A model generated the notes under the pieces. The model saw only the letters and a program-made list of their open reading frames with translations, ran no database searches and was not told the DNA's origin. From a virus, in IMG/VR virus record IMGVR_UViG_3300044796_000657, positions 310,001-374,000 of that record: a stretch of 64,000 nucleotides of DNA. One strand, given 5' to 3'. Each line of letters opens with the position of its first letter. Positions within the stretch are counted from its first letter, which is position 1. Both the position numbers and the translations under genes were made by a program. Below are positions 12,427 to 61,586 of the stretch, in pieces.

Positions 12427-12561
12427 ATGATGAACTTCAAAGAATGGTTAAAAATTAATGAAATGGCTGGAGTTGCCACCATTATAAATCCAAAGAAGGA
12501 TTGCAAAAATCCCGATTTTCAGGTATGGGGTGCGGTTTGTAAAAAGTCTAAGAAGAAGTAG
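12427..12561 (+). CDS. 44-residue basic protein with FKEWL N-terminal tag
   Basis: Encodes MMNFKEWLKINEMAGVAT... ending CKKSKKK. The first residues fit the recurrent F-[KR]-x-[WYF]-h tag found on several proteins here and resemble the T4 capsid-targeting peptide MKTYQEFIAEA. The remainder is short, with two Cys and a Lys-rich end. It starts right after the CTAAATA box with no leader. Its 3' end overlaps the convergent GNAT gene by 14 nt. Candidate internal head peptide; function otherwise unknown. Confidence 0.5.
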   Translation: MMNFKEWLKINEMAGVATIINPKKDCKNPDFQVWGAVCKKSKKK

Positions 12562-12922
12562 GTAATCTTTCCATAATCGCATGACCTAACGGATTTCCCC
12601 GGCCAATAATGCGGAATCCAAGATTCAGATAAAAGTTTCCAAGTCGATTAAGGTTTGTTCGTTTGTCGAGTGGCGATGCTAAAAGTTTGATTCTTAATTT
12701 TCTTGCATCTGCCTCTGCTACCAATGCTTTCATGGCAGCAAGAGCTAATCCCTGATTTCTTTTCTTTCCTGAAACACGAAGAGAAGCAAGGTCAATAAGG
12801 TCGCCTGACACTTGATAAAGTAACCTTGCACCATTAATGTTTTTCTGATGATGCTTTTCAGCGAAATCTTCATCAGAAAATGGCAGGTTCTCGGACTCTA
12901 AATAGTATTGCTTGAAGTTCAT
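12548..12922 (-). CDS. GNAT-family N-acetyltransferase
   Basis: 124 residues. The acetyl-CoA-binding motif A is visible as SGKKRNQGLALAAMKAL ([QR]xxGx[GA]) and motif B as FYLNLGFRIIGRGN, typical of GNAT enzymes. The N-terminus MNFKQYYLESENLPF carries the recurrent tag (F-K-Q-Y-Y-L-E), which is outside the acetyltransferase core and precedes it by about 40 residues. Start overlaps the upstream nuclease stop by 4 nt (ATGA). Substrate unknown. The tag suggests delivery with the virion, which is inference. Confidence 0.72.
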   Translation of the reverse strand: MNFKQYYLESENLPFSDEDFAEKHHQKNINGARLLYQVSGDLIDLASLRVSGKKRNQGLALAAMKALVAEADARKLRIKLLASPLDKRTNLNRLGNFYLNLGFRIIGRGNPLGHAIMERLPTSS

Positions 12923-13581
12923 TGGTCTGAAATTTGAAACTCCTTCTTTTTAGCGGCAATCCAAACCTCCGTAATAATGATAAATTTTATACCCCGCTTC
13001 TTACAGTACTCGTTGCAATAACTCCATTTAGATTCATTTATCGCCAAGTTTGTTTGATTGACCGGCTTGATTTCCCACACTTCTTTTCTTCCATCGGTAA
13101 AGTGAACACGCAAGTCAGGAAGATAAGTATGTCTCTCACCATCAAAGAAATACTCAATTTCCAGCGGCTCTACTTCGTAACCAATTACATCATCCATCTT
13201 ATCCAGAATGCGATAAACATCTAATTCCCATCCCGAATTGTAATGGAGCTTTCTGCGATTTTTTGGCGAAACGTGCCACCCTTCCTTGAATGATATTTTC
13301 TTTTTCTTACGATTAGGATCTTTGGGATCACGCCAGATCAATGATTTCATTTGACAAGTTTTAGGCAACACTTCTTGTGGATGTATTGATTTGAAATGTG
13401 CTCTGACATCTCTAACGGGAGCACAGCAACGAGCCAAGGGGCATACGACGTATTCTCGCCCCTCTTCGTGGTTATTGCGTATATGTTCTTTGAAACTGGC
13501 CCAATCGGGCTGCAGGACGCCACAGACGAAGCATTGAAATTGTCTCTTGCCGCCGTGGTTATTGTTAAATGGTAATGGCAT
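12919..13581 (-). CDS. Zinc-finger plus PD-(D/E)XK (TnsA-like) nuclease
   Basis: 220 residues. The N-terminal part has two Cys/His finger units: CFVCGVLQPDWASFKEHIRNNH (C2H2), then CPLARCCAPVRDVRAHFKSIH. The C-terminal domain shows a restriction-like nuclease core: E in YNSGWELDVYRIL, D in HTYLPDLRV, and ExK in EVWEIKP, the order seen in TnsA and related DNA endonucleases. Such finger-nuclease proteins are common in large phages; targets are unknown. The start ATG at 13581 has no clear Shine-Dalgarno. Translationally coupled to the GNAT gene. Confidence 0.72.
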   Translation of the reverse strand: MPLPFNNNHGGKRQFQCFVCGVLQPDWASFKEHIRNNHEEGREYVVCPLARCCAPVRDVRAHFKSIHPQEVLPKTCQMKSLIWRDPKDPNRKKKKISFKEGWHVSPKNRRKLHYNSGWELDVYRILDKMDDVIGYEVEPLEIEYFFDGERHTYLPDLRVHFTDGRKEVWEIKPVNQTNLAINESKWSYCNEYCKKRGIKFIIITEVWIAAKKKEFQISDQ

Positions 13582-13689
13582 ATAAAAATCTTTTTTAATT
13601 TGACTATAATTGGCATTCCTTATTATGCCAATTGTTTAATCACCTGTGTCAGAAATCCCATCCCATTAAGACAAAGCAATCTTCGAGCA

Positions 13690-14196
13690 TTATGAACACG
13701 TATCGCCAAAAAGTTCATGCGTTTCTTTAACGAAATCTGAGAACATTTTGACTAAGTGAATATTAACAGCTTCTAGCAATTTCAATGAACTATCAAGAGT
13801 GCCTAAAAATACATAAGATCCTCTTTCACATTGAGTACAAGAAATTTCACTCATATAATGGTTAATGTCTTTAACTGCTTTCAAGAAATCGTCGTTATAA
13901 AACATTAACTCTTTTTCAACTTGTAAAATGGCATTTTTTGTACTTACCCATTTAGCATGACAAGGGGCCGTTGAGTAAAAGGTTGCCTTGGTGTCACACT
14001 TAGTTTTCCAATCCGCTATTTGTTCTGATAATTCATGAAATTCTTTTGATATAACATCATTCAATCTATTTAGCTGATCTTTTTTGAATTGATGACAAGA
14101 TGGTGCGAATGTCAAATCATCACAAGGCGTGTGATCTTTCACCAAGGGTGTAATAGCTTCGATTTTGGCTGGTGCTATATTGGATATATTGCTCAT
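13690..14196 (-). CDS. Hypothetical helical protein with scattered cysteines
   Basis: 168 residues, mostly alpha-helical (NRLNDVISKEFHELSEQIADWKTK). It has seven or more Cys including a CTQC pair (SEISCTQCERGSY) and a terminal DTCS. SD AAGGA upstream of ATG. No signal peptide or enzyme motif recognised. Lies 42 nt downstream of the neighbouring minus-strand beta-rich protein and may share its transcript. Confidence 0.6.
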   Translation of the reverse strand: MSNISNIAPAKIEAITPLVKDHTPCDDLTFAPSCHQFKKDQLNRLNDVISKEFHELSEQIADWKTKCDTKATFYSTAPCHAKWVSTKNAILQVEKELMFYNDDFLKAVKDINHYMSEISCTQCERGSYVFLGTLDSSLKLLEAVNIHLVKMFSDFVKETHELFGDTCS

Positions 14197-14238
14197 GTAA
14201 TCCTTTTTGTAACAATGACTTAAATATTATATATTCCA

Positions 14239-15000
14239 TTAATCGTATTTTATAGACTTGACCTCTAACATGAGGTTTTGATTGAAAACCCCTATTACAA
14301 TTTTGTCGGCAATAAACTTGTAATGGTTGCCGGTTTCAACCAATGTGGTAAAATTAACACCATCTGGTGAAATGGAAATTTTGCGATAATTATCATCATC
14401 TTCCAATTGAACAAACTTGGCAGCAGACATGGACATTTGTTTTGTTTTCATTTCAAATCCTTTGAAATGAACTTGATCTTGCCAACGTGCGACAAAGGCA
14501 TTGGGTTTTATACCGAAATCCCGTAATCCAAGAGTCATTGCTTTGCCGCAATTTGATCCAAATCCAAAGTAAATGGCCCCGGTACGATTTTCAGGAGCAA
14601 ATTCATCAGCTATCAAACTTGATTCCCATTGAAACGTCACCTTGTATGGTGTTATTGGTATTTCACGATAGAGAAACACTGGATGTGGCGTATAAGATGA
14701 CCGACAAACGACATTTAACGATCCTTCATTTTCGCTACAAACGGAATCTTCTTTGTTGTACGACCATTCCCATCCTTGTGCTGGTACATCAAACATCTTG
14801 CCATATTCGTTGTATCTTGTCCAAGATGTGCCATCGTCATAGAGTTTGAAGGGTCTATCCTCACAGATAAACAATCTCCCGGCATTTCCTGCTTCTGGAC
14901 AATCTTCATATTTACCTGCGATGATTGGTGAAGGGACGCATTCTTTGACTAATCCATAGACCATATCTTTGACGGCACATTTTGAACACTTGCATTTCAT
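14239..15000 (-). CDS. Hypothetical beta-rich protein, Cys-rich N-terminus
   Basis: 253 residues with SD AAGGA. N-terminal CKCSKC plus further Cys (VKECVPSP, YEDCPEA, LFICEDR) suggest a small metal-binding or disulfide knot. The remainder (VTFQWESSLIADEF...TGAIYFGFGSN...ISPDGVNFTTLVETGNHYKF) reads like a concanavalin/laminin-G-type jelly roll, as used in virion decoration or carbohydrate binding. No catalytic residues identified. Virion or lectin role is inference. Confidence 0.55.
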   Translation of the reverse strand: MKCKCSKCAVKDMVYGLVKECVPSPIIAGKYEDCPEAGNAGRLFICEDRPFKLYDDGTSWTRYNEYGKMFDVPAQGWEWSYNKEDSVCSENEGSLNVVCRSSYTPHPVFLYREIPITPYKVTFQWESSLIADEFAPENRTGAIYFGFGSNCGKAMTLGLRDFGIKPNAFVARWQDQVHFKGFEMKTKQMSMSAAKFVQLEDDDNYRKISISPDGVNFTTLVETGNHYKFIADKIVIGVFNQNLMLEVKSIKYD

Positions 15001-15035
15001 GTTAATTTCCTTTTGTAATATTATGTATTTTTATC

Positions 15036-15064: not shown

Positions 15065-15088
15065 ATTTCCATCCTTCCGGAGTAGATC

Positions 15089-17092: not shown

Positions 17093-17470
17093 TTAACTAC
17101 TACTGCTGCTACTACTATCACTTGACGAAGATGATGAGTGGCTAACTACGTGAGTGGGTCTTATGGGTTCAGGTCGTAATACCATGCCGGGTGGTGTATC
17201 AAAAAATGGGAAATCTGGTAACTTAAATTTAGGCCACCACTTTGGCGGAGTTGGAATTGGCGGAATCGGTATCGGCGGTATTGGTGGGAGTGGGAACGGC
17301 CAAGATCGCCGTGGTGTCCCCGGAGGTGTCGGGGGCGTCGGCGGTGAAGGTATTCCTCTCGGTGGTTCAGGCGGCATAGTCGGCGGCAATAGCGGCATCA
17401 TTGGAGGCCCATAAGGCCCAATTGGTCCAAAAGGCGGTGGTGGTGGAAGCGGGGGTAAAGGTGGATTCAT
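17093..17470 (-). CDS. Pro/Gly-rich protein with poly-Ser C-terminus
   Basis: 125 residues, starting MNPPLPPLPPPPPFGP and rich in PP, PIPP and GP units. It contains a short core (PKWWPKFKLPDFPFFDTPPG) and ends PTHVVSH followed by a Ser/Asp tract. The upstream region CACAAGGAAAATA-ATG nearly repeats that of its paralogue at 17070, indicating duplication of gene and ribosome site together. Ser codons are again mixed. Its ATG overlaps the stop of the preceding gene (TAATG). Function unknown. Confidence 0.6.
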   Translation of the reverse strand: MNPPLPPLPPPPPFGPIGPYGPPMMPLLPPTMPPEPPRGIPSPPTPPTPPGTPRRSWPFPLPPIPPIPIPPIPTPPKWWPKFKLPDFPFFDTPPGMVLRPEPIRPTHVVSHSSSSSSDSSSSSSS

Positions 17471-17874
17471 TATTTTCCTTGTGGGGTTGTTTGATCTTTT
17501 TCACGTTCAAAAAATGCTGAAAGTTGAGCCAATACTTCATCTCTAGAGATGATATGAACTTTCGGCAAATCTGTTTCTCCAAAAATCATTTGAAGTTGAA
17601 CGCCTTGTCCCATTTTGTTCAGGTTAATAGCAGTAAAGTGGGCTTCTTTAAGCCATCCCGGTGAATTGTCTTCATCATCCAAGTCTTTCATCTTAGCAAA
17701 CATTACACGACTGCCTTCATCACCACCGAAAACCGAGTCTTCGAAAGTAAAGAAAAATGAAAAGTTTCCACCATCCAACATTAACTTCAATTTATTTTTT
17801 TGAATAGAATCCAATGCCGCTTCTAGCAAAACGGAAAGATTCTTTCGGCCAAAAATTTCATCCATGTTGATCAT
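17470..17874 (-). CDS. Hypothetical protein behind a CTAAATA box
   Basis: 134 residues, MINMDEIFGRKNLSVLLEAAL at the start, with alternating strands (LKLMLDGGNFSFFFTF, VQLQMIFGETDLPKVHII). Soluble; no family recognised. No Shine-Dalgarno; instead CTAAATA lies exactly 4 nt before ATG. It leads a three-gene minus-strand group with the two Pro/Ser proteins. Confidence 0.58.
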   Translation of the reverse strand: MINMDEIFGRKNLSVLLEAALDSIQKNKLKLMLDGGNFSFFFTFEDSVFGGDEGSRVMFAKMKDLDDEDNSPGWLKEAHFTAINLNKMGQGVQLQMIFGETDLPKVHIISRDEVLAQLSAFFEREKDQTTPQGK

Positions 17875-19346: not shown

Positions 19347-20752
19347 ATGTATCTGACATCATTAATAAGTTCAAAATTCAAAATGCCAAAACGAGACTGA
19401 GAATAGCAGTTATTGGTGATACGCTCGTTGATGAATACCGTTACGGCCAAGTCAACCGGATTTCGCCCGAATTTCCCGTTCCGATATTAACTTCCGAGTC
19501 AGACGCCAAGGAATCTTGTCCCGGTGGCGCTGCGAATGTATGCCATCAAATGACACACATGAACGCCGAAGTCTTTCTCGTAGGCTTTGTGGACAATGTC
19601 ACACGTAAATTGTACGGTCAGCAAACCTTCAATATTGACTACTGCGTTGATTTGCCAAGCGGCTTTGTACCAATCAAAGTTCGATTTTATGAAGGCGACT
19701 TTCCTCTCCTGCGATGGGATATTGAAAGTCCTAACTATGGCGAAAAAGATTTAAGTGAATTGAGACGAAAAATTCTCATTAATTTTGAATCTCTCATCAA
19801 AGAGGGATTGAGTGCGGTCATTATTAGTGATTATAATAAAGGCATCTTTGACGAAGCTACCGCTCGTTCTCTCATGCAATTATGTACTTATTACCGCATT
19901 CCTACTATCGTTGATCCCAAGAAACCACCAGTGAGCAAATGGTTCGGGGCTACAGTCATTAAGCCAAATGCGGCTGAAGCCAAGACGCTAACTGGTGAAT
20001 CTACTATTTCATCTCAATTGAGTAAATTATGTGAAAATGCTCATACGAGTATGATCACCCAAGGCGGCGACGGTGTTATTTGCCAAATTGGAAAAGAAAT
20101 TTTTGAATACATGTCCCCCGTACCACGATCTAAGGAGGTGAACAGTGTTATCGGGGCGGGGGACTGTTTTATAGCAATGTTAACTCTTGGGATGTCGCAC
20201 GGTATGACAACTCAAGAAGCTGTAGCATTGGCATTTGAAGCCGGTGCTGTTTACGTTAAAGCAAGACATAATAAACCAATTCATCTTAATGAAATACTCG
20301 CAAGAGTTGATGTTGAAGGCTCTCGTATCGTCAAAGCCGAAGAGTTAAACTTTAACAAAAACGAACGTATTGTTTTCACAAATGGTTGTTTTGACGTTAT
20401 TCATGCTGGTCACTTGGATACTTTGAAATTTGCCAAATGTCAAGGTGATCGATTGATTGTCGGTGTTAATTCGGATGCTTCTGTCAAGCGACTTAAGGGT
20501 GATAAGCGACCCATTTATGGACAAGATGAACGTGCTAGATTTTTAGCGTCAATGTATTTCGTAGATCATGTTGTGATTTTTGATGAAGATACACCAGCCG
20601 AATTGATTAATAAAATTCAGCCACACATTGTTGTTAAGGGCGGCGATTACTCTATTACGGATGTTGTTGCCGGTAATGCCAAAGTTGTTTTGTCGCCTCT
20701 CAGAAAAGGATACTCTTCAACTAATACAATTAATAAACTATCTGACGACTAA
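19343..20752 (+). CDS. hldE: Bifunctional heptose-7-phosphate kinase / heptose-1-phosphate adenylyltransferase
   Basis: 469 residues with both HldE (RfaE) domains. Residues about 20-320 form a PfkB/ribokinase fold (IAVIGDTLVDEYRYGQVNRISPE; PGGAANVCHQM; catalytic GAGD at 271-274). Residues about 340-469 form a nucleotidyltransferase domain (FTNGCFDVIHAGHLDTL with HxGH at 354-357; VKGGDY). It makes ADP-heptose from heptose-7-phosphate together with a phosphatase. The window also holds an HldD-like epimerase and several glycosyltransferases. GmhA and GmhB are not seen. ADP-heptose feeds LPS core synthesis and is also an immune-active metabolite; use by the phage is inference. Confidence 0.92.
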   Translation: MNVSDIINKFKIQNAKTRLRIAVIGDTLVDEYRYGQVNRISPEFPVPILTSESDAKESCPGGAANVCHQMTHMNAEVFLVGFVDNVTRKLYGQQTFNIDYCVDLPSGFVPIKVRFYEGDFPLLRWDIESPNYGEKDLSELRRKILINFESLIKEGLSAVIISDYNKGIFDEATARSLMQLCTYYRIPTIVDPKKPPVSKWFGATVIKPNAAEAKTLTGESTISSQLSKLCENAHTSMITQGGDGVICQIGKEIFEYMSPVPRSKEVNSVIGAGDCFIAMLTLGMSHGMTTQEAVALAFEAGAVYVKARHNKPIHLNEILARVDVEGSRIVKAEELNFNKNERIVFTNGCFDVIHAGHLDTLKFAKCQGDRLIVGVNSDASVKRLKGDKRPIYGQDERARFLASMYFVDHVVIFDEDTPAELINKIQPHIVVKGGDYSITDVVAGNAKVVLSPLRKGYSSTNTINKLSDD

Positions 20753-20755
20753 ATA
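20749..20755 (+). promoter_or_regulatory. T4-late-like CTAAATA box, 4 nt before ATG
   Basis: CTAAATA then AGGT and ATG at 20760. The box contains the stop codon of hldE (TAA at 20750-20752), so the signal is embedded in the end of the upstream gene. Confidence 0.55.
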
Positions 20756-20759: not shown

Positions 20760-21044
20760 ATGTTCAAAAAATTCAAAGAATTCGTTTCACTAAAAGAGGC
20801 AATGGCTCCTCAAATGGGCCAACCGGGTCAAATGACTCCACAGACGCCAAATCCTGCCGCTAAAATGAACGTTCAAAACACTTTGAAGCAGGCGATGAAT
20901 GTGCCGCCTCCGACTGGTATCAATCAATCAATATATAAGAACAAGTTGATGGCAGCTATGAAAATGTCTCAAACGAGCAATGTTCAAACACCTCAACAAG
21001 CGATAGATTTAGTTAATATTCAGCAGCGGGCGGCTCAGGCGTAA
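20760..21044 (+). CDS. Small Met/Gln/Pro-rich protein with FKEF N-terminal tag
   Basis: 94 residues. N-terminus MFKKFKEFVSLKEAMAPQM fits the recurrent F-K-x-[FWY]-h tag. The body is Met-, Gln-, Pro- and Asn-rich (GQPGQMTPQTPNPAAKM) with a helical repeat-like C-terminus. Preceded by the CTAAATA box with 4-nt spacing; AGG lies too close to serve as a normal ribosome site. The last 32 bases overlap the convergent HNH gene. Candidate internal head protein; function unknown. Confidence 0.58.
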   Translation: MFKKFKEFVSLKEAMAPQMGQPGQMTPQTPNPAAKMNVQNTLKQAMNVPPPTGINQSIYKNKLMAAMKMSQTSNVQTPQQAIDLVNIQQRAAQA

Positions 21045-22500: not shown

Positions 22501-24165
22501 TTACCAACCAAATTCCTGTAAAAGTTTATGATGTGGTCTTTGTGTGTCGAACATCATTCTTGGCAACAAGTCAACATCTGGATCTAGATTGGCCAACAAA
22601 TCGCCCGTTTCAATACCAGCTTCCAATTCTTTCCACAATGCCTTAACGTCGTCACCCGAAAAACTCTTGTGAATGATATTAGCATCAGGCGTAGCACCGA
22701 TTGGCATTTCCCGGTTCAAAACGTCAGAGATGTACAATGCTATACTGAGGCAAATCACCAAGTCGTCATGCTTGTTCTTTTGTGCTTCGGCTCTTTGCTT
22801 TTCTTGATTGTAAATGAATGTTAACAATTCCCGAATAATACGAACGCTTCGAATCTTGACAAGACGATTCAACATACACGTTTGTAATGCTTCCATACAA
22901 ACTGGACGCAATACTTTATTCATGTTAACGCCGGGACGATCTCTAGTTGCCCCTTGCGTAAAGTAAAGGTTGTCATAACTCAATGAGTGTTCAAGTCGTT
23001 CACAAACAGCTTGGCCCGGTCCCATTGAGTTTTCCACAATAATCAAAGCATTGTTATAAAGTTTTCCCACATGCGCCAAAACTTGACTGAACTTATATGT
23101 CGGAATTGTCTTGGAATAAAATTCAGCCACTTGCGTTAACGTGGAAATGTCCATGACAATAAAGGCGCAGTTATCGCCTTCTTGTCCAACACCCATAGCG
23201 GCATCGGCAGTAATGAGATATTCACGACCGGATTTAGGCATTTCCCAAACCCACATCGCACCGGGTTCGTATTTTGCATTCGGAAGTTCGTCTTCTTTGA
23301 AGCTTTCTTCGGGGATGATGTCCCATTCACCCATCATCTTTTTAATTGGATTAGAGCATTGTTTTTCAAATTCTTTGATAACTTCACCGGGAATGTAAGT
23401 ATCACCGGAGCCGAGGAATGAACCTTCGTATTCCTGTGCGAAGCCTTTTTCGCCGATGTTAGCTCGTGTTCGCTTTTCCCATTCGGCATTGTTATAGTCG
23501 GGGTGTTCATGCCAGTCAATATGTACAACAAAAAACTGACTTCTCTTGTCAATAGCCTTTTGGTATTGTTCGTAGTACCAACCACCGACGCCACCGATAC
23601 CGTTAACCGTGGAGATGATAATAGCATTACCACCGGTTGAGAGCGTAGGATACATGCTCTTCCAGTGTTCTTCCATACCTTGAACGAACGCCGCTTCATC
23701 GATAATTAGATAAGTTAAAGCACGGGAACGAGCAGCGGCAGGAGTATAGAACCACATAACCGAACGAGTTTCAGCAAACTCTTTTTCGTGGTCGTTATCG
23801 TTGTTCATTTCCGGACGAAGCCATTCCGGAAGTTCATTCTTGGCATTAGCTACCGTTTTACCTACAGCTTTAGCTTCACGGTCAGTTTTAGAAGCAATGA
23901 GAATACGCTGATCGGTGTAGAAAATGCACTTCCATAACATCCACATAGATGTTACAGTGGTCAGACCGGCTTGACGGAATTTCTTAACAATGCTAAACTG
24001 ATTAGATTCAAAGTCAGAGATAACTCGATTTTGGAAGTCGTATAGAACGAATGGTACCAAACCCTTTTTCGGGTGGGTAATCTGTAAGTACTTCTCAGAA
24101 AAGTACTTGAAACTATTTCGACATCTGATAAACTCTCTAAGTTGCTCGTCATTTAATTGGCCCAT
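22501..24165 (-). CDS. Terminase large subunit (T4 gp17-like)
   Basis: 554 residues. The packaging ATPase has a deviant P-loop FRQAGLTT (residues 63-70; T4 has RQLGKTT), Walker B/DE motif YLIIDEAAF (DE 156-157), and motif C ISTVNG. The C-terminal RNase-H-like nuclease shows acidic residues in LITADAAMGVGQEGDNC, IIVENSMGPGQA and KHDDLVICLSIAL. It translocates DNA into proheads and cuts the concatemer. No small subunit or portal gene is recognised nearby. The hydrophobic residue in the usual Lys position is a known variation in this family, where an upstream Lys (KKFRQ) may substitute. Confidence 0.92.
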   Translation of the reverse strand: MGQLNDEQLREFIRCRNSFKYFSEKYLQITHPKKGLVPFVLYDFQNRVISDFESNQFSIVKKFRQAGLTTVTSMWMLWKCIFYTDQRILIASKTDREAKAVGKTVANAKNELPEWLRPEMNNDNDHEKEFAETRSVMWFYTPAAARSRALTYLIIDEAAFVQGMEEHWKSMYPTLSTGGNAIIISTVNGIGGVGGWYYEQYQKAIDKRSQFFVVHIDWHEHPDYNNAEWEKRTRANIGEKGFAQEYEGSFLGSGDTYIPGEVIKEFEKQCSNPIKKMMGEWDIIPEESFKEDELPNAKYEPGAMWVWEMPKSGREYLITADAAMGVGQEGDNCAFIVMDISTLTQVAEFYSKTIPTYKFSQVLAHVGKLYNNALIIVENSMGPGQAVCERLEHSLSYDNLYFTQGATRDRPGVNMNKVLRPVCMEALQTCMLNRLVKIRSVRIIRELLTFIYNQEKQRAEAQKNKHDDLVICLSIALYISDVLNREMPIGATPDANIIHKSFSGDDVKALWKELEAGIETGDLLANLDPDVDLLPRMMFDTQRPHHKLLQEFGW

Positions 24166-29912: not shown

Positions 29913-31331
29913 ATGAAAATATGGAATTCATTAAAGGCGTTTTTTGTTACCCCAATAGTAAAGGCTTTTAGTGGTTTAATACATTACCAAGCTAACGATC
30001 CAACGAGGCCAGAGCTTGCGGTAGTGATGGAATTGCCACAGCCGCCAACCCCTTGCCCGCCATTCGTGGTTGAAGGATTTACGGGCAAAGATGGACCGGA
30101 TGGATCAATTGAGCGGCAAGCTTGTGGCGTTTACACCACAATGACTTTGTCGCTAATCCAATGCCAAAACATTCTTACTAAGCCGATTATTCGTTGGCCA
30201 GCCCTTTGCCAGCTTTTTGCCAATCCACGTTCTGGCAAAATGTTCAATGCTTATTACGACCGATACTATCTCAACTTCTTTTACGATTTAGACCCAAAAA
30301 CCAATCAGACGGTTTATACGTGTGAATCGACAGATGTTGTTGCCCACGAACTCGGACATGCCATTCTTGACGCTCTCCGACCCGACTTGTGGGCCGTTCA
30401 AAGTGTTGAAATCCAATCTTTCCATGAAGCTTTTGGCGACATTAATGCGATGTTAACGGAACTTACAATGAAGGAAATGGTTGCTGACGTTTTGAAAGAA
30501 ACGAATGGTGATTTGAGAAAGAGTAATGTTGTTGCCCGTATCGGCGAACAAATGGGACTTGCTATCTACCATGCTAAGGGTAATGATGGTATGCCGGATA
30601 ATTTTGCTTTGAGAACCGCTATCAATAACTTCCAATACGTTGCCCCTGAAACATTGCCAACACGTGCGCCGGATGATACTTTGGCTGGTGAACCACACAG
30701 TTTCAGCCGAGTTTTCGCAGGCGGATTCTACGATGCATTGGTCAATGTTTACGATAAAGAAGTTGCAAGTGGAAAACTTCCTGTTGATGCCTTAGAGCAA
30801 GCTAGATTGAAAATGTCTAAAATCATTTACAACAGTATCCGTACTGCTCCCGTGACGACACGATTCTTCGGGTCAGTTTTGAAGGCAATGTTAACTTATG
30901 ATTTCCAAATGGGATTAGAGTGTGGTGAAGCAATTAGAACTGGTTTCGCAGGACACGGCATTTATGCTCCGGAAGATTTGAATGTCAATATGGTGGCTAT
31001 TGATTTGACGGCACAAGATTCGTTGTTTATGCTTGGCCAAAACCAAGTTGAAACGGCCAGAACGGTTGATTTTGACTTTGACAAGAGCGATCCTCTTTAT
31101 TCTTGTATTATTGAATTGGCAAATGCTCATCAACCACGCCAGTTTGTTACTGACAATTTAGAAGATTTACAAAAAGCCATTGGTGCTGCCAAACACTCAT
31201 TAATGGTAATTCGTGATCATGATCGTGTTGCCTCCGGACCAACTGCCGGAAGGGTTCACGAAAAGGAATTTTCCGTTATTGATGGCCGTTTAGTGCGTAA
31301 TTACTTCAGTTGCTGGTTTCATCAACATTAG
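29913..31331 (+). CDS. M4/M36-like gluzincin metallopeptidase
   Basis: 472 residues from the ATG preceded by a GAAAGGGGGGGG tract. Zinc-binding HExxH in TDVVAHELGHAILDALRP and a third-ligand Glu in QSFHEAFGDINAML, the same spacing logic as thermolysin (HExxH...[NHF]ExxxD). Signal peptide absent; the N-terminus is a short amphipathic segment (MKIWNSLKAFFVTPIVKAF). Much of the C-terminal half has no clear counterpart. As a cytoplasmic or virion-borne protease it could process phage or host proteins. The eight-G run before the start is a possible slippage site. Confidence 0.75.
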   Translation: MKIWNSLKAFFVTPIVKAFSGLIHYQANDPTRPELAVVMELPQPPTPCPPFVVEGFTGKDGPDGSIERQACGVYTTMTLSLIQCQNILTKPIIRWPALCQLFANPRSGKMFNAYYDRYYLNFFYDLDPKTNQTVYTCESTDVVAHELGHAILDALRPDLWAVQSVEIQSFHEAFGDINAMLTELTMKEMVADVLKETNGDLRKSNVVARIGEQMGLAIYHAKGNDGMPDNFALRTAINNFQYVAPETLPTRAPDDTLAGEPHSFSRVFAGGFYDALVNVYDKEVASGKLPVDALEQARLKMSKIIYNSIRTAPVTTRFFGSVLKAMLTYDFQMGLECGEAIRTGFAGHGIYAPEDLNVNMVAIDLTAQDSLFMLGQNQVETARTVDFDFDKSDPLYSCIIELANAHQPRQFVTDNLEDLQKAIGAAKHSLMVIRDHDRVASGPTAGRVHEKEFSVIDGRLVRNYFSCWFHQH

Positions 31332-32150: not shown

Positions 32151-32954
32151 ATGATGGAAAGACGCAAATTCGATAATTGGGTTAAATCTCGCCAAAATAT
32201 AGTAGGCGAAGGCTTCATGGATCGTATATTCGGCAGAAAGCAACAGCCGCAATCGCACGAACCACCTGAACCGGAAGAACCGTCACATATTTATGCGCAC
32301 CCAACGGTTGAAAAATATCACCGTGAAGTCCTAGATCATCTTCTTTTGAATCAGCCACTCGAAATCATTAATGGTTCTGGTCAAAAGACCGGCGATTATC
32401 ATGGTAAACTCCCGCCGGAAATTGACAAGGCTCTCCGAAGATTTGTGGCAAGTCACACTTTGGGCGGCGAAAAGTCATTCCTCAGAGTTAACCAGCACGA
32501 CGCAATTTTGATCCTCAACTATATGGATCGATTGCGGGTGCCGGGCGAAGACTCACCACTCACCGACCGCTTTGGCATTACAAATCCTGTTTCATTCAGT
32601 CAATGGATGGAAACCCACGTTCCAGTATCCTTGAACGTACAAAGACAAATGGGCTTTGCACAAGCATCCGGTAACTATGTGCCGCCACGTGATAATGTCG
32701 GAGCGGGTTCTTTACGTGATCCAAGAATCAAGAAACTTGTTGACGCTTCGTTGAAAGTAATTAACGGTGTCAGCGGCAAGATGGAAACATCAAGCCGTAG
32801 AATTACAAAAGACATTATTGATGGTGTCAAAGAAATGCGTGGGGCACTAGCTGCCATGAACATTATTGATGATGCTCAACCGACCACCAACACCCCTCCT
32901 CCTGATCCTTACGTCGTTGGCAAGGGCCGTCCAAAACCCAAACAAAAGCCTTGA
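32151..32954 (+). CDS. Hypothetical protein with possible N-terminal tag
   Basis: 267 residues beginning MMERRKFDNWVKSRQNIVGEGF, loosely fitting the recurrent F-x-x-W-h tag. A Pro/Glu-rich linker (RKQQPQSHEPPEPEEPSH) follows, then a helical domain (EIDKALRRFVASHTLGGEKSFLRVNQHDAILILNYMDRL). The C-terminus is Pro-rich and basic. No good Shine-Dalgarno precedes either Met. Virion or internal protein is possible; function unknown. Confidence 0.55.
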   Translation: MMERRKFDNWVKSRQNIVGEGFMDRIFGRKQQPQSHEPPEPEEPSHIYAHPTVEKYHREVLDHLLLNQPLEIINGSGQKTGDYHGKLPPEIDKALRRFVASHTLGGEKSFLRVNQHDAILILNYMDRLRVPGEDSPLTDRFGITNPVSFSQWMETHVPVSLNVQRQMGFAQASGNYVPPRDNVGAGSLRDPRIKKLVDASLKVINGVSGKMETSSRRITKDIIDGVKEMRGALAAMNIIDDAQPTTNTPPPDPYVVGKGRPKPKQKP

Positions 32955-33604: not shown

Positions 33605-33790
33605 ATGGCTAAAAAGACTCAAACCAAACAAGAGCAAATTTCGCAAGAAGAGCAGTATATCGCATTCCTTCAAAAGCGATTAGCTTCTGAGCATTACAAG
33701 GAAGTTACTTCAAAGGAAGACTACGCCAAGGAAAAGGCAAAGTATGAAAAGGCAAAGTTCAAATTGAAGATGTTGAAGGAACAGCGTTAA
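33605..33790 (+). CDS. Small charged coiled-coil protein
   Basis: 61 residues, AAGGAG 6 nt before ATG. Almost entirely helical and Lys/Glu-rich (EEQYIAFLQKRLASEHYKEV; AKEKAKYEKAKFKLKMLKEQ). Immediately downstream of pncA. Its 3' 32 bases overlap the convergent Nudix gene. Function unknown. Confidence 0.6.
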   Translation: MAKKTQTKQEQISQEEQYIAFLQKRLASEHYKEVTSKEDYAKEKAKYEKAKFKLKMLKEQR

Positions 33791-34286
33791 TAGAACCTAC
33801 GATGTTTTCGATAATCTGCCGGGATTTCTGAAACAGTGAAATCAAACCCGAATGAAATTTCTTTGAAGATATTAACATCATCTTTTGAATTTCTTCATAA
33901 GCCAACCAGTCAATATGGGAAGTTTCCCAACTATGTCCGGAATGGGGACTGAAAGTGAATTCTGTTGGCACAACACCAATGAAATTGAAATACTTGAAGT
34001 TTCCAGAACTGAAAACATAAGCGGGAGTTAACTGGATTGCCCCTTCGTAACCCGTCTCTTCTTTCATTTCTTCTTTGGCACTTTCGGCGGGTTGCATTCC
34101 TCTTTGGATTGCGCCTCCAAGAGTGCCGTAGCAATTACCCATATGAACCGATCCGGAACGCCACGCAAGACAAATCCGTTTCGTACTTGAACATATCGGA
34201 AGAATGCCGCTGGCCCCACCACCTTCACCAGCCCAAAAACCGTCGTTATCGTAGTGAGATTCTATCCACATCTTAAATCTCTTCAT
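33759..34286 (-). CDS. Nudix hydrolase with FKMW N-terminal tag
   Basis: 175 residues. Nudix box GAIQRGMQPAESAKEEMKEE followed by TGY: the key metal-binding glutamates (E-x-x-E-E) are kept, while the first Glu and the Arg of GX5EX7REUXEEXGU are replaced by Met and Glu. The N-terminus MKRFKMWIESHYDNDGFW carries the recurrent F-K-x-W-I-E tag and precedes the domain. Nudix enzymes cleave nucleoside diphosphates linked to another moiety (NADH, ADP-ribose, caps, dNTP). The diverged box leaves substrate open; closeness to pncA invites an NAD-related guess only. Confidence 0.78.
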   Translation of the reverse strand: MKRFKMWIESHYDNDGFWAGEGGGASGILPICSSTKRICLAWRSGSVHMGNCYGTLGGAIQRGMQPAESAKEEMKEETGYEGAIQLTPAYVFSSGNFKYFNFIGVVPTEFTFSPHSGHSWETSHIDWLAYEEIQKMMLISSKKFHSGLISLFQKSRQIIENIVGSINAVPSTSSI

Positions 34287-34516
34287 TAGACCGTTCTCAC
34301 AACCTGTTTTCTTCCGATCTGTGGCAATGCTGGCCCGCCATAGGTTGGGAATGCCGAAGTCGTTGGTTCGGGCCGCATTGGTTTAGGTATACTTTTATCA
34401 CTCAGTCCACCAGATTTCAAGTCCGGTCTACGATCCTGTGAAGGCGTTGCTTTGATTGGCCCATTATCTACAATAGGCCCACCAAATTCCATCCATGTTC
34501 TAAAACTGCTTAGCAT
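34286..34516 (-). CDS. Pro-rich small protein with FRTW N-terminal tag
   Basis: 76 residues from ATG 34516, preceded by GAGAGGATATATAAAG. An upstream in-frame start is ignored because it overlaps the late-type promoter. N-terminus MLSSFRTWMEFGGP fits the recurrent tag. The rest is Pro/Arg/Lys-rich and unstructured-looking (SIPKPMRPEPTTSAFPTYGGP). Its stop overlaps the Nudix start (TAATG). Candidate internal head peptide. Confidence 0.5.
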   Translation of the reverse strand: MLSSFRTWMEFGGPIVDNGPIKATPSQDRRPDLKSGGLSDKSIPKPMRPEPTTSAFPTYGGPALPQIGRKQVVRTV

Positions 34517-34547
34517 ATCTTTATATATCCTCTCATTATCGTATACA

Positions 34548-40606: not shown

Positions 40607-41557
40607 TTAATTTTTTTCTTTCTTTTTTCTAATGGTTTTTGATTTTATTATTTGTCTTTGATGTACCGGATCATTGTCTAGTTTAGCATCAATAAACTTC
40701 ATAATCAATTTCTGTTTTTCTTGATTGATTGCTGGTTCAGCGATTGGATATGGGCAATTTTTAATTTTTTGATAAACATAGTTTCTCGCCCACTTGCATT
40801 CAGGAATGCTTTGATAATCACCTAAATTTTTCGTCATAAATCTTAATCTGATACGGTTGTTTTTGTTTTCTATACCACAACCTTCGCAGTATTCAATTAA
40901 TTCGGGCAAAAATTTATCTACCAAATCTTTTTTGCGAGACAAATAAGGGCCGTCGGAATAAATGAAATTCAAAAAAGTTAACACATCGGCCTTTTTGTTC
41001 CAAACGATACTCCACGCAGCATTAACGGATTTTGTGTTTTTGCTCTTTTGTGATGGATGTTGAGGGAGTTTGGTGATTTTTCCGATTTCATCATTCATCA
41101 TATCAACAAACATCTTTGTGCCAATTAGCGTAACACCTACAAGGTTTTTCTTATTTTTGAAAATACAACCATCGCCATCAAAATATCCACGTATAAAATG
41201 AGAGAGATATTGTTCTTCAATATTTGGAAAAGGCAAATTGAGATAGGTTTTATTGGGCAAAATGCCGTGTTTGTTTACAAGACAAGAAATTAACTTTTTG
41301 CTGTAAATGGCAATTTTTGTATAAGGCTTAACGTAATAGCCTTTTTTATGCCAATAGCCATCCAGTCTGGTAATTTTATGTTTTGAATGAATTGCATTTC
41401 TCAAACCAACTACGATCTCTTCATCTTCGGTAGTGCATCCAATTTGTAATTTTCCATCACTGATATTGCCATCAGCCCATATCCACCCAAGATAATAAGC
41501 CATTTCTGTTGACCAATTTTCAAAATAATCATGTTTCATTCCATAAAATAGTATCAT
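40607..41557 (-). CDS. LAGLIDADG homing endonuclease
   Basis: About 316 residues. Two LAGLIDADG helices are visible, YYLGWIWADGNIS and HFIRGYFDGDGCIF, about 110 residues apart, as in monomeric enzymes. The remainder is basic and Lys-rich at the C-terminus (KSKTIRKKKEKN). Free-standing, inserted between the SF2 helicase and the Cas4-like nuclease with short spacers and no intein or intron splice signals that I can see. ATG at 41557 avoids overlap with the upstream gene; 41539 is an alternative. Confidence 0.82.
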   Translation of the reverse strand: MILFYGMKHDYFENWSTEMAYYLGWIWADGNISDGKLQIGCTTEDEEIVVGLRNAIHSKHKITRLDGYWHKKGYYVKPYTKIAIYSKKLISCLVNKHGILPNKTYLNLPFPNIEEQYLSHFIRGYFDGDGCIFKNKKNLVGVTLIGTKMFVDMMNDEIGKITKLPQHPSQKSKNTKSVNAAWSIVWNKKADVLTFLNFIYSDGPYLSRKKDLVDKFLPELIEYCEGCGIENKNNRIRLRFMTKNLGDYQSIPECKWARNYVYQKIKNCPYPIAEPAINQEKQKLIMKFIDAKLDNDPVHQRQIIKSKTIRKKKEKN

Positions 41558-52007: not shown

Positions 52008-52014
52008 CTAAATA
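52008..52014 (+). promoter_or_regulatory. T4-late-like CTAAATA box, 4 nt before ATG
   Basis: CTAAATA then AAAC and ATG at 52019, directly after a strong terminator. No Shine-Dalgarno. Confidence 0.6.
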
Positions 52015-52018: not shown

Positions 52019-52270
52019 ATGCTAGGATTCAAATTGTGGATAGAAGCGAAAGCCGCTCCTCTGATTATCAGTAGACGCAATGAATATGACGATTTTCCGT
52101 ACATCGTTGTTGCGTTCCCTAGCGGTGCCCGTTGGAAATATATTTTCCCTAATCAGCACACGATGGAAGAATATTTGTATCGATACAGTCGGAACGTTGG
52201 CAGATTAGTTTCCAAGATTAAAGACGACGATACTGTTAAACAAGAGCAATTACCTCTTCCACAGAGTTAA
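52019..52270 (+). CDS. Small protein with FKLWIEA N-terminal tag
   Basis: 83 residues: MLGFKLWIEAKAAPLIISRR, the cleanest example of the recurrent F-K-x-W-I-E-A tag. A short basic body follows (GARWKYIFPNQHTMEEYLYRYSRNVGRL). Only the CTAAATA box and 4 nt precede the start. Its 3' end overlaps the convergent sulfotransferase gene by 21 nt. Candidate internal head protein; function unknown. Confidence 0.6.
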   Translation: MLGFKLWIEAKAAPLIISRRNEYDDFPYIVVAFPSGARWKYIFPNQHTMEEYLYRYSRNVGRLVSKIKDDDTVKQEQLPLPQS

Positions 52271-57763: not shown

Positions 57764-57769
57764 AAACCC

Positions 57770-58654: not shown

Positions 58655-59497
58655 GCCGCTGGTCGTATTAATAGCAACCGGCAAGCCCATAATTTTGACG
58701 CCGAATTTGTCCGGATGAACCGGCAGAGTACCTTGCGACACTTCTCTTTTTATCCAAATCGGCAATATGTCACCCGGTAACATTGTCCCAATTTCCAATG
58801 GTTCACGACGAGCATTGGTGTCAAACACAACGCCAGTTGGTGGATTGTTTGATATTCCTATGTTCGGAGCAGTGCTGTTAATTGGCCCGCCATAGCCGAT
58901 ACGTGTAATCCGAACATTCAAACCTTGATCATCAACTACTCTAAGCAATTCTTGCGCTCGCCCTTTTGCGGTACCCGAAAACGTAATAATAAAATCATAT
59001 GAATCGCTTGTTCTTTGGCCCAAACAAGTCACGCCTGTCAAATTCCCCAGAGAGTTGATTAGAGCCGCAATCCGTTGAGACATAAATGCGGTGTCTGGTA
59101 CCCATAGAATATCCCGTGTTTGGGTAGTTTTTGTACCTTGTGCAGAAGATTCTGTATAAGCCAATCGGAATGAACCACCAACTGGACTTCCGGGTATTGT
59201 AATGGCTTGTACATCATTGGTAAAAGCAAATCCTAATTCAATATCAGCACCTTTATCTGCTTCTTTGGTCAAAAATACACTGGCATTTTTGAGTTTTTCA
59301 ATAGAAGACAAGAGTTTAACATAGATACAACGGTAATCAATTGAACCATCAATTGTTTGCTCTCTGGTTACGTCATCGAATAAATTGTTAAATATTTTTT
59401 TGACTGGCGAGCGAGATGGTTCACCGCCAATAGATAACAATGGATCTGAATTGTGCTGTCCGCCGGATAGCATAAACTCAATGTCTTTTTCAGTCAT
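58643..59497 (-). CDS. Probable virion structural protein
   Basis: 284 residues. MLSGGQHNSDPLLSIGGEPS at the start, NLFDDVTREQTIDGSIDYRC followed by IYVKLLSS (a YRCxYVK-type motif), and a C-terminal domain with WIKREVSQGTLPVHPDKFGV. The same combination of an SGGxxNxDPxxSLGG start and a YRxhYVKN motif occurs in phage structural proteins of unknown position. Beta-rich. Overlaps the HldD-like gene by 12 nt. Identity within the virion unknown. Confidence 0.62.
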   Translation of the reverse strand: MTEKDIEFMLSGGQHNSDPLLSIGGEPSRSPVKKIFNNLFDDVTREQTIDGSIDYRCIYVKLLSSIEKLKNASVFLTKEADKGADIELGFAFTNDVQAITIPGSPVGGSFRLAYTESSAQGTKTTQTRDILWVPDTAFMSQRIAALINSLGNLTGVTCLGQRTSDSYDFIITFSGTAKGRAQELLRVVDDQGLNVRITRIGYGGPINSTAPNIGISNNPPTGVVFDTNARREPLEIGTMLPGDILPIWIKREVSQGTLPVHPDKFGVKIMGLPVAINTTSGLRD

Positions 59498-59598
59498 TTG
59501 GTCTATATACCTTTATAGAAATTTGTAGCCTTGTGTATATATGTCATATCGTTGCAAGTGCCGATTGTACATTGGGTTGACTAGGAGAATACAGAAAC

Positions 59599-60615
59599 AT
59601 GATGAATTATCAAACATACAAACTCCTTAACGAAACTTTGGGTTTGTCGGCTCTTGGTGTTAAGTCCCCCCACAACTTGGGAATTGGCGCAGCACCATCG
59701 GGCTGGAGTGAAGCGGGTATGCTGCCTCCAGTGGGTGGGGCACTTAGCGGTGGCAATCCTTTTGGCGGCGTTGGTGGTGGCGGTGAAGCCCCTGCTCCCG
59801 GTGCCGATGATATGGGCGGCGATGACATGAATGCTGATCCTGATGCCGGTGACGATCAAGGTGATCAAGGTGATAAAGATCCAGCCGATATGTCTCACGA
59901 AGAATTGGTTGCTGCTTTAACTGATTTGGGACACGAAGAAGACGAACTTGAAGGCAAAGAAGACGACGAACTCCGTGATATGCTCGTCCAAGCCCAAGCC
60001 GAACAAGGCGATGATAGTGGCGACGGCGAAACCGATGCCGATCTGGATGCCGATCACGGCGACGATATGGGTGATGCTTCAGCGGGTAGTGGTGATGACA
60101 ATCTCGTACCTAATAAGAAGCCAGTTAGCCCATTCATGAAGGCTTTTATGAAGAAAGAAGCCGCTGAAGCTAAGGCCAATGACAAAGAAGACAAAAAGGG
60201 CAAAGACGACGGCAAGCCTACTTTCATGATGAAGAAAAAGTGCGGTTCCGGCATGGATGATAAGAAGATGGTTATTGGCAGCAAGAACTGCAAAGGGTGC
60301 AAAGACAATATGAAGAAAGAAAATACCGCTGGTGATTACGCTCGTCCAAAGAGTTACGATGGCAGCGAAGCGGCCTTCAAGAAGAGCATTCGTGAACAAC
60401 TCGCTGCTACCAATGTTAATCAAAAATTCAACGATGGTATGCGAGATTTCAAAAAGGAAGATTTGCTGATTATGCCAAATCCCCTTGAAACCCCTGCTAT
60501 GTCTCAACCCGGCGAAGCAGGTTTTGCACCACAGGGCAAGATTGGTGACTTAGGATTTACTGCGGAAGCCGTTGCCAGTATGATGAAGCGAATTGAAAAA
60601 TTGGAAAAGAAATAA
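59599..60615 (+). CDS. Acidic-then-basic internal/scaffold-type protein
   Basis: 338 residues. Starts MMNYQTYKLLNETLGLSALG, close to the T4 capsid-targeting start MKTYQEFIAEA. Gly/Pro/Asp-rich acidic middle (GADDMGGDDMNADPDAGDDQ to about residue 160), then Lys-rich (KKKCGSGMDDKKMVIGSKNC). Ends with a helical piece (SMMKRIEKLEKK). No enzyme motif. AGGAG lies about 11 nt before ATG. The strong charge partition and tag-like N-terminus suggest a head-interior or scaffold protein; unproven. Confidence 0.6.
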   Translation: MMNYQTYKLLNETLGLSALGVKSPHNLGIGAAPSGWSEAGMLPPVGGALSGGNPFGGVGGGGEAPAPGADDMGGDDMNADPDAGDDQGDQGDKDPADMSHEELVAALTDLGHEEDELEGKEDDELRDMLVQAQAEQGDDSGDGETDADLDADHGDDMGDASAGSGDDNLVPNKKPVSPFMKAFMKKEAAEAKANDKEDKKGKDDGKPTFMMKKKCGSGMDDKKMVIGSKNCKGCKDNMKKENTAGDYARPKSYDGSEAAFKKSIREQLAATNVNQKFNDGMRDFKKEDLLIMPNPLETPAMSQPGEAGFAPQGKIGDLGFTAEAVASMMKRIEKLEKK

Positions 60616-60621
60616 CTCATC

Positions 60622-60650
60622 AAAAAAAGCCCGCATTTGCGGGCTTTTTT
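60622..60650 (+). terminator. Rho-independent terminator
   Basis: GCCCGC-ATTT-GCGGGC hairpin preceded by seven A's and followed by six T's, 7 nt after the stop of 59599-60615. Confidence 0.92.
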
Positions 60651-60699
60651 ATTTGGGTTCACAATATTATACTACTGTGCAAGTTAATACAAGGAAAAT

Positions 60700-60807
60700 A
60701 TGGACAAGACGAGATATTTGAATTTTTGGCTCTTGAGAGCTGAAATAAGGAGACGATTAGTAGAAGAAAAAACCAAAGAAGTTAAAGTGGTCTACAAAAA
60801 GTCTTGA
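60700..60807 (+). CDS. 35-residue basic protein
   Basis: Encodes MDKTRYLNFWLLRAEIRRRL and a charged end (VEEKTKEVKVVYKKS). AAGGAAAAT precedes ATG. It is bounded by terminators on both sides, so the pocket between them seems reserved for this mini-gene. Function unknown. Confidence 0.5.
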   Translation: MDKTRYLNFWLLRAEIRRRLVEEKTKEVKVVYKKS

Positions 60808-60810
60808 TAC

Positions 60811-60836
60811 AAGCCCCGCTAAGCGGGGCTTTTTTA
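60811..60836 (+). terminator. Rho-independent terminator
   Basis: AGCCCCGCT-A-AGCGGGGCT hairpin followed by T5, 4 nt after the 35-residue gene and at the 3' end of the convergent Prim-Pol gene. Confidence 0.88.
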
Positions 60837-61442
60837 TTTGCATTTCCATTGATTACGGCAAACAATCTCTTTCCAATCTTCTTTTTTCTTTGGTAATTTT
60901 TTTTCAAGAAGCCAAGAGGGATCAAAAATAGGTGTCTTTTTCAAGAGCTCTAATGTCCAAGTTTGAGTTTCTTGATAGGGCAACTTGGATGTTTCGTGGA
61001 TTGATCCCGGCCCCACAAAGAGGCCACCGTCGCCTCGAATGTCCAAGTTATATTTAACGCCGTCTTTGACTATTTTTTGAACATTACGAATACTTCTGTT
61101 CATTGGATGCCGATAAATGTAATGTGTACCGTGTCCGGAACCGCTGACCTGCATGAGTGGTGTAGGTGGACATGCTTTTTGTACGACTTGCTCAGCGGCC
61201 TCATCGTCGGCATCTACAACGATAATACCAGAAATTTTGCCTGTGATAATGGCATAATTCAAACCGGCATACCTTTGATACCAATAAACAATTTGGTCTA
61301 AGCTGGCTCGTTCTGATTGATAGGGCTTCCATCGTTCTACGGTACACCCTTTGTTGGATGCTCCCTTAACGAGTGGCGGTGATATGGAGAAGCCGAGATT
61401 GCATAATCGCAAAGCATTTTCAAAGATCAGTCTATGATTCAT
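60834..61442 (-). CDS. Primase-polymerase (AEP, Prim-Pol) domain protein
   Basis: 202 residues from ATG 61442. FENALRLCNLGFSISPPLVK, CTVERWKPYQSERASLDQIVYWY, NYAIITGKISGIIVVDADDEAAE (the DxD metal site), MQVSGSGHGTHYIYRHP (sxH) and DIRGDGGLFVGPGSIH match the bifunctional primase/polymerase N-terminal domain used by plasmids and phages. The helicase half usually fused to it is missing. With the DnaG-type primase at 42434 the phage would have two primases. Confidence 0.82.
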   Translation of the reverse strand: MNHRLIFENALRLCNLGFSISPPLVKGASNKGCTVERWKPYQSERASLDQIVYWYQRYAGLNYAIITGKISGIIVVDADDEAAEQVVQKACPPTPLMQVSGSGHGTHYIYRHPMNRSIRNVQKIVKDGVKYNLDIRGDGGLFVGPGSIHETSKLPYQETQTWTLELLKKTPIFDPSWLLEKKLPKKKEDWKEIVCRNQWKCK

Positions 61443-61447
61443 AAATA
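61441..61447 (+). promoter_or_regulatory. ATAAATA box, 4 nt before ATG
   Basis: C-ATAAATA then TGAT and ATG at 61452; no Shine-Dalgarno. It sits across the start codon of the divergent Prim-Pol gene. Confidence 0.5.
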
Positions 61448-61451
61448 TGAT

Positions 61452-61586
61452 ATGGGTTCTTTCAAAAAATGGCTTGAGTCTGCTGATCAACAACGACAAA
61501 AAGATAAGGCTTCCCTCGCTCTGAAAAAACCAGAAGTGAGAGATAGCCTAATATCTCGTTACGGTGGATTTTTGAAGAAAACTTAA
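61452..61586 (+). CDS. 44-residue protein with FKKWLESA tag
   Basis: Encodes MGSFKKWLESADQQRQKDKA, then SLALKKPEVRDSLISRYGGF and LKKT. Tag F-K-K-W-L-E-S-A at residues 4-11 matches the recurrent pattern. The rest is basic and helical. Only the ATAAATA box precedes it. It ends 4 nt into the convergent esterase gene. Candidate internal head peptide. Confidence 0.48.
   Translation: MGSFKKWLESADQQRQKDKASLALKKPEVRDSLISRYGGFLKKT

Follow-up and report, generated by a model that had tools for sequence, protein, structure and literature searches.

In a 64,000-nucleotide stretch (bases 310001-374000, hereafter the window) of the 430,229-bp IMG/VR virus record IMGVR_UViG_3300044796_000657, which we call G000, a common short peptide opens proteins whose bodies are unrelated to one another. 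G000 is classed as linear and is the record of a T4-related giant phage; 21 of its genes carry the peptide convincingly, seven of them in the window. We think it probable that this N-terminal tag is a T4-type capsid targeting sequence (CTS) marking an injected arsenal of about twenty cargo proteins. Directly observed are the tag and its enrichment at N-termini, the unrelated bodies behind it, its association with promoter-like hexamers, its recurrence in relatives, and a Nudix hydrolase in which the boundary between tag and body can be placed.

An N-terminal tag on unrelated proteins

The first-pass annotation had drawn attention to nine N-termini (Table 1). All nine are in the sequence as quoted, those of the acetyltransferase, Nudix and 34516 genes on the minus strand; seven are convincing, and two, at 32151 and 59599, are weak, fitting poorly and having no late-promoter hexamer at the start. 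A longer possible open reading frame (ORF), from 61434, encloses the gene at 61452, whose start comes 18 nt into it. The literal motif then proposed, F-[KR]-x-[WYF]-h-x-E, was too tight, as the position of Glu varies among 21 aligned G000 N-termini (32151 included): it follows the first aromatic at +5 in nine, +6 in three and +8 in six. A core of aromatic-x-x-aromatic-hydrophobic fits 21 of 24 proteins, the doubtful 32151 among them, and misses 17874, 59599 and the gene at record position 374177.

Using the regular expression [FWY]xx[WFY]hydrophobic, beginning at residue 2-9, with internal 16-mers as background, we found matches in 8/93 window N-termini and 60/3141 internal segments (p 4e-4). 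Adding Y at the hydrophobic position and using a second gene-calling scheme gave 10/92 against 67/3168 (p 2.7e-5), and correcting the starts of 34516 and 61452 gave 12/92 against 67/3168 (p 6e-7); the background match rate in internal segments is 2.1%. Of the ten matches, five are convincing tags, one is the doubtful 32151, and four (36020, 38252, 42434 and 50673) read as chance, about two being expected. Window N-termini are thus enriched over internal segments (p 3e-5 to 6e-7); an equal frequency in random N-termini was what the annotation had named as grounds for abandoning the idea. Over 94 contiguous kb, 20 kb of which were chosen because tags had been seen there, 15/138 N-termini matched against 95/4584 internal segments (p 2e-7).

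Extending the search to the rest of the genome revealed an excess of the corresponding DNA pattern, and further tagged genes were found in twelve stretches of the record. The pattern occurs 107 times in the whole record against 68 for a reversed control (about 100 listed), and 16 times against 5 when TAAATA is placed 2-16 nt before the ATG; 11 of these 16 read as in-frame tag-like starts. One of the 11, at window 42434, is primase-like by eye and is probably not a tag; a similar start is present in its counterpart in LR756511, a distantly related and unannotated 595-kb uncultured phage whose terminase is nearest to that of the window in the phages collection (41.6% identity). A variant beginning with Tyr showed no excess in the whole record (52 against 47 in the control) and was rejected.

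The bodies are unrelated, as had been claimed: BLASTP comparison of 23 candidates with one another (the two doubtful ones in, 17874 out) paired none of them at E<=0.01, whether whole or stripped of the first 16 residues. The tagged proteins are 44-454 aa long. Their Pfam matches are to different families, except for two GNAT-like and two ADP-ribosyltransferase (ART)-like proteins, and none of the 17 submitted to Pfam, out of 23, shows two different domains. As to the enzymes that the annotation had placed in the arsenal, the Nudix hydrolase scores above the Pfam cut-off and the acetyltransferase, with an Acetyltransf_7 match below it, is only likely. Several other cargo domain names also come from sub-threshold matches, and are likely rather than certain.

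That tag and body behave as separate modules is best seen in the Nudix hydrolase, which is 55% identical over 162 aa (tblastn E 5e-47) to part of gp273 of Tunturiibacter phage Tunturi_5, the homology beginning at residue 13, directly after the tag. Annotated as a MutT/NUDIX hydrolase, gp273 has 1489 aa and also contains three ART-PolyVal stretches and GNAT domains, a composition by which it may be called polyvalent. In one-sequence comparisons, the window acetyltransferase matched part of it (32% over 85 aa, E 2e-6), as did the ART-like protein at record 10421 (41% over 29 aa, E 3e-6), so that three of the tagged G000 proteins have homologues within the single chain of gp273. In Planktothrix phage Pag-Yong1, the match to the protein at record 296242 is a 'large polyvalent protein' (35% over 86 aa, E 4e-8). 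Polyvalent proteins, as described in PMC5512222, are proposed to be injected and have the same kinds of domains (ART, GNAT) as the G000 cargo; in G000, in contrast, the domains reside on separate small tagged proteins and not in one multidomain chain.

Late-promoter-like hexamers and recurrence in relatives

Among the genes of the window, 4/10 that match the tag and 3/82 others have TAAATA 3-8 nt upstream of the start (Fisher p 0.002), or 5/12 and 3/80 with the two starts corrected (p 7e-4); with 42434 counted as untagged, these values become p 0.02 and 0.006. TAAATA or TATATA is found 2-8 nt upstream of 14 of the 23 candidates, at exactly 4 nt in nine, and three hexamer-less candidates are preceded, on their own strand, by another tagged or head gene: 34286 by 34516, record 298235 by 298708, and the acetyltransferase gene (12922) immediately by the head-closure-like gene at 12919-13581. 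For ORFs of at least 40 codons in 111 kb partly chosen for tags, the distance from TAAATA to the start peaks at 4 nt (12; next highest 4); in the window alone there are 6 at 4 nt, the next highest being 4 at 7 nt.

According to PMC1524935, the T4 late consensus, TATAAATA, spans positions -13 to -6 relative to the RNA start; its counterpart in phage Aeh1 is CTAAATA, from -12 on. Given these positions and a hexamer 4 nt upstream, transcription of the tagged genes would begin on the ATG or immediately beside it, and we infer a near-leaderless mRNA. A Shine-Dalgarno motif precedes 2/14 promoter-tag genes against 31/85 others (p 0.09; 1/7 against 31/85 in the window alone, p 0.23); because this lack is only a trend, leaderless translation is a guess.

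The same arrangement recurs in LR756511, with 27 promoter-tag matches against 9 in controls. We recognized 16 tagged ORFs in 18 stretches of that genome and two in its terminase locus, 18 in all; the gap is 4-6 nt in 15/16, 13/18 fit the strict core, and NADAR (E 2.3e-19) and HAD_SAK_1 (E 1.6e-15) domains are found among the bodies. Two G000 proteins have relatives there that keep the tag: the product of window 12427 is 39% identical over 38 aa, tag included, to that of L036 (MKTFKDWMQLKE-MGG..., E 8e-5), and that of record 374177 is 39% identical over 97 aa to that of L030, with a tag in both phages.

In IMG/VR at large, the pattern with a 4-5 nt gap was found in at least 120 stretches. Among the 119 occurrences listed, the in-frame ones number 101, against an expected 3/7 (p 3e-21, related contigs included), and 85 of the listed matches open at least 40 codons, with bodies that by eye are mostly different and include some near-duplicates. 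Thirteen records chosen for having an IMG/VR match contain 65 matches against 14 in controls; the corresponding counts are 2 against 1 for T4 and 3 against 2 for Flavobacterium phage immuto. The idea that a 4-5 nt spacing is general for tagged phage genes was rejected by the distribution of gaps: in an IMG/VR sample allowing 0-30 nt (113 of 120 stretches, among the matches listed), 35/80 tag starts have the hexamer at 18-24 nt and 7/80 at 4-5 nt.

Proposed capsid targeting and its alternatives

The annotation's interpretation is supported in part, and the likeness to the T4 CTS that it had pointed out is borne out. T4 internal protein (IP) IPI starts with MKTFKEF, and IPII and IPIII with MKTYQEFIAEA, with the same spacing of aromatics. 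As reported in PMC9026906, the first ten residues of IPIII are enough for incorporation, residues 4 and 7 driving targeting and residues 8 and 10 processing; the two aromatics of the tag match positions 4 and 7, and its hydrophobic residue and Glu match 8 and 10. The comparison holds on account of these IP starts and residue roles, of the recurrence of the tag, with late-promoter hexamers, in LR756511 alongside gp21-, gp22- and gp23-like genes, and of tagged enzymes in cyanophage virions. LR756511 encodes an S77 protease (E 2.5e-27), a portal (phrog_213, 1e-72) and, judged by eye from position and likeness, gp22- and gp23-like proteins.

As in the T4 internal proteins, aromatics at i and i+3 are followed by a hydrophobic residue and Glu, the bodies are unrelated, and the head protein is of T4 type. 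In contrast, T4 has three tagged proteins and G000 has 21 convincing ones, the G000 cargo includes enzymes, and the leader of the T4 ip genes is purine-rich, of AGGA type, with no TAAATA against the ATG. PMC12373910 describes T4 Ip1-3 as injected inhibitors of different GmrSD enzymes that have only the leader in common, and PMC9391042 gives IPIII a further role in host range. The concept is already in print, since PMC9026906 puts forward the CTS as a means by which T4-like phages can package a variety of proteins; in the open-licence literature on capsid targeting and cyanophages we found nothing beyond this T4 review. A parallel can also be drawn with T4 Alt, an injected ADP-ribosyltransferase, in that the ART-type cargo of G000 is proposed to act at once after injection; the G000 proteins differ in carrying an IP-type tag, and one of them matches ART-PolyVal and the other weak PARP and KptA profiles.

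We propose that the tagged proteins would be made late, from TATAAATA-type promoters set against the start codon, and that the peptide, its aromatics one helical turn apart, would dock each of them onto the core of the prohead, whose protease would then cut at or near the tag Glu; the freed protein would remain in the head and enter the host together with the DNA. There the cargo, comprising a Nudix hydrolase, likely acetyltransferases, ART-like, amidoligase-like and helix-turn-helix-like proteins and many small unknowns, may target host defence or metabolism during the first minutes of infection.

Virion mass spectrometry (MS) of T4-like cyanophages bears indirectly on the packaging step. In S-CREM2 (Table 3 of PMC10665884; 52 of 219 genes detected in the virion), the detected enzymes include a SAM hydrolase (MKDFDSFLEE), an APH-like kinase (MKRFDAFLTE) and an NMNAT-like protein (MKNFSSFLTE); these unrelated enzymes share F/L-x-x-F-h-x-E with gp136 and gp13, and a similar stretch lies near residue 20 of the Cas9-like gp12. 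They resemble the G000 proteins in this F-x-x-F-h-x-E tag and differ in that the position after the first aromatic is not Lys or Arg. The motif with Glu matched 5/52 detected and 3/167 undetected proteins (p 0.02). In S-SCSM1, where 48 of 282 genes are flagged as virion proteins in the record (45 according to the paper), it matched 2/48, including NMNAT (MKSFLQFLKE), and 1/234 (p 0.08); pooled, the two phages give p 0.0017. NMNAT is not independent, as it is present in both MS sets, and the S-CREM2 authors state in PMC10665884 that carry-over could not be excluded for virion enzymes. These data support, and do not prove, the view that the tag marks virion proteins.

A number of results weigh against capsid targeting. 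The Glu-containing motif was fixed after the detected S-CREM2 proteins had been viewed, and is thus post hoc. Our first regular expression matched 4/52 detected and 6/167 undetected S-CREM2 proteins (p 0.19), a strict form, F[KRQ]x[FWY], matched 1/52 and 7/167, and in S-SCSM1 the first expression did not separate virion proteins (2/48 against 6/234); moreover, S-SCSM1 gp30 (MKTFKQFMSES) is tagged and not flagged as a virion protein. In G000 itself, the position of Glu is variable and many tags have no clean L/I-x-E site. The search for a gp21-like protease that the annotation had called for found no S77 prohead protease in G000, a portal was not found either, and a late sigma factor (profile phrog_234) was found neither in G000 nor in contig G001. 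The sigma profile recovers T4, the positive control, at 2.5e-70 and is weak in LR756511 (7e-8) and contig G002 (3.5e-8). The protease and portal searches gave a signal in no genome and, having no positive control, are weak negatives. Tailed phages require a portal; since none was found, the record is probably incomplete, or its protease and portal genes are very diverged.

Two other functional accounts have to be considered, both of them unlikely. The somewhat better one is that the tagged proteins are mainly components of the prohead core or scaffold, which are kept in the head or degraded and do little in the host. Many of them are small and have no known domain (several of 44-94 aa have no Pfam or PHROG match), and T4 IPIII also affects head assembly (PMC9026906). 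Core proteins, however, should be conserved, whereas these bodies are mutually unrelated, and some are enzymes (the Nudix hydrolase and likely GNAT proteins in G000, NADAR and HAD in LR756511). We give slightly less credence to the second account, in which the peptide is a docking helix for some other phage structure, such as the baseplate, tail tube, phage nucleus or replication compartment, and the proteins are not injected. A short amphipathic N-terminal helix would suit many docking systems and the protease was not found in G000, but the T4-type gp23 and large terminase, the likeness to the start of IPI, the Glu that often follows the aromatics and the tagged enzymes of cyanophage virions all speak against it. 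Chance, whereby an AT-rich genome with small ORFs yields FKxW-like starts and TAAATA reflects AT-rich upstream sequence or stop codons, is very improbable: the hexamers of 20760 and record 296242 do overlap an upstream stop codon, 4/10 window matches are chance-like, the Tyr-first variant shows no excess and 2% of internal segments match, but the window enrichment (p 3e-5 to 6e-7), the in-frame excess in other contigs and the two related bodies with tags kept in LR756511 argue otherwise.

A bolder and decidedly more tentative suggestion is that in this giant-phage lineage promoter and targeting peptide, with a hexamer ending 4-5 nt before the ATG, form a compact plug-in cassette. Any body placed behind it might be expressed late, packaged in the head and injected, and the polyvalent protein of other phages would be replaced by single-domain effectors, some in divergent pairs. 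If the tag marks injected cargo, candidate first-minute effectors of uncultured T4-related phages could be listed from sequence alone, dispensing with virion proteomics. Capsid targeting would also provide a mechanism for the presence of kinases, NMNAT and SAM hydrolase in cyanophage virions, and would imply two interchangeable ways of delivering the same domains, as one polyvalent chain or as many tagged proteins.

Tagged genes and genomic context

Table 1. Tagged genes, hexamers and head or packaging genes in G000, in window or record coordinates
Feature	Position	Strand	Remarks
Tagged 44-aa protein, MMNFKEWLKINE-MAG...	window 12427..12561	+	LR756511 relative keeps tag
TAAATA, late-promoter-like	window 12417..12422	+	4 nt before ATG of 12427
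Tagged likely GNAT acetyltransferase, MNFKQYYLESE	window 12548..12922	-	Pfam Acetyltransf_7 E 0.002, below cut-off
Tagged 94-aa protein, MFKKFKEFVSLKE-AMAP	window 20760..21044	+	
TAAATA	window 20750..20755	+	4 nt before ATG of 20760; overlaps stop codon of upstream gene
Tagged Nudix hydrolase, MKRFKMWIE-SHY	window 33759..34286	-	Pfam NUDIX E 2.5e-7, over cut-off
Tagged 76-aa protein, MLSSFRTWMEFGG	window 34286..34516	-	Just upstream of Nudix gene, same strand
TATATA, variant late-promoter-like	window 34522..34527	-	5 nt before 34516 start
Tagged 83-aa protein, MLGFKLWIE-AKA	window 52019..52270	+	
TAAATA	window 52009..52014	+	4 nt before ATG of 52019
Tagged 44-aa protein, MGSFKKWLE-SAD	window 61452..61586	+	
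TAAATA	window 61442..61447	+	4 nt before ATG of 61452
Doubtful member, 267 aa, MMERRKFDNWVKS	window 32151..32954	+	No late-promoter hexamer at start
Doubtful member, acidic 338-aa protein, MMNYQTYKLLNE	window 59599..60615	+	No late-promoter hexamer at start; could, as a guess, belong to head core or scaffold and not to cargo
Tagged ART-PolyVal-like	record 10421		PF18760 E 1e-4, below cut-off
Tagged gene	record 206171		
Tagged gene	record 268612		
Tagged gene	record 268668		
Tagged gene	record 296242		
Tagged gene	record 298235		
Tagged gene	record 298708		
Tagged amidoligase-like	record 298741		Amidoligase_2 E 8e-4, below cut-off
Tagged likely GNAT	record 301741		E 9e-4, below cut-off
Tagged ART-like	record 302698		Weak PARP and KptA matches, E 0.015-0.03
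Tagged gene	record 306337		
Tagged gene	record 306382		
Tagged helix-turn-helix-like (by eye)	record 374177		Misses strict core; LR756511 relative has it
Tagged gene	record 427033		
gp23-like major head protein	window 2162..3097	+	PF07068 E 4.7e-27; phrog_138 E 4.5e-29; T4-type head
Head-closure/endonuclease-like protein	window 12919..13581	-	phrog_218 E 6e-22
T4-type large terminase	window 22501..24165	-	41.6% identical to LR756511 terminase

Three tagged pairs are divergent and back to back (298708/298741, 306337/306382 and 268612/268668 in the record), with starts 33-56 bases apart and at least one late-promoter-like hexamer per gap; a similar pair is seemingly present at 72613-72683 in contig G001. 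The tagged ART-PolyVal-like ORF at record 10421-10606 encodes 61 aa, and because the apparent end of the domain (by eye) is in a separate small ORF downstream, 10654-10776, the gene may be broken or split. No relatives of the Nudix hydrolase or of the ART-like protein at record 302698 were found in viral_contigs, and tblastn of the amidoligase-like protein against the phages collection gave no match. Structure predictions made from single, unaligned sequences for the proteins at records 296242 and 302698 were useless (mean predicted local distance difference test scores of 35.6 and 31.9).

In the phages collection, two sequences match the ART-like protein at record 302698 (E 3e-4), one of them from Stenotrophomonas phage RAS14. 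In the RAS14 gene (L281 1456-2226), TAAATA stands 5 nt ahead of the ATG, and the encoded leader, MKIQTLLQLLNEAE, is a different one, ending in an L-x-E-A site; a leader of Flavobacterium phage immuto reads MRLLELLREAKE (L025 13245-13559). These two possibly belong to a second head-targeting family of leaders, marked by an L-x-E-A ending. Within the window, TAAATA also lies 4 nt ahead of the ATG of an untagged protein encoded at 17470-17874 on the minus strand; the protein begins with MINMDEIFGRKNLSVLLEAALDS, and its leader could be of another type (L-L-E-A).

The gp23-like protein has only 311 aa, its LR756511 counterpart having 491 aa by eye, and no portal, protease or scaffold gene was found adjoining its gene. 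A viral_contigs search with the window terminase gave ten distant loci of 25-26% identity, which were set aside; a 25-kb part of the window had no megablast match in the phages collection, and ARAGORN found no tRNA genes in the window. Additional to the tagged amidoligase-like protein is an untagged COOH-NH2 ligase-type protein at window 62327-63289 on the minus strand (PF14395 E 1.3e-11; phrog_3815 E 1.7e-56). By eye, a 472-aa protein at 29913-31331 (plus strand) contains an HELGH metallopeptidase-like motif and has an apparent LR756511 counterpart (L024 16367-17962), and the product of 40607-41539 (minus strand) resembles LAGLIDADG homing endonucleases.

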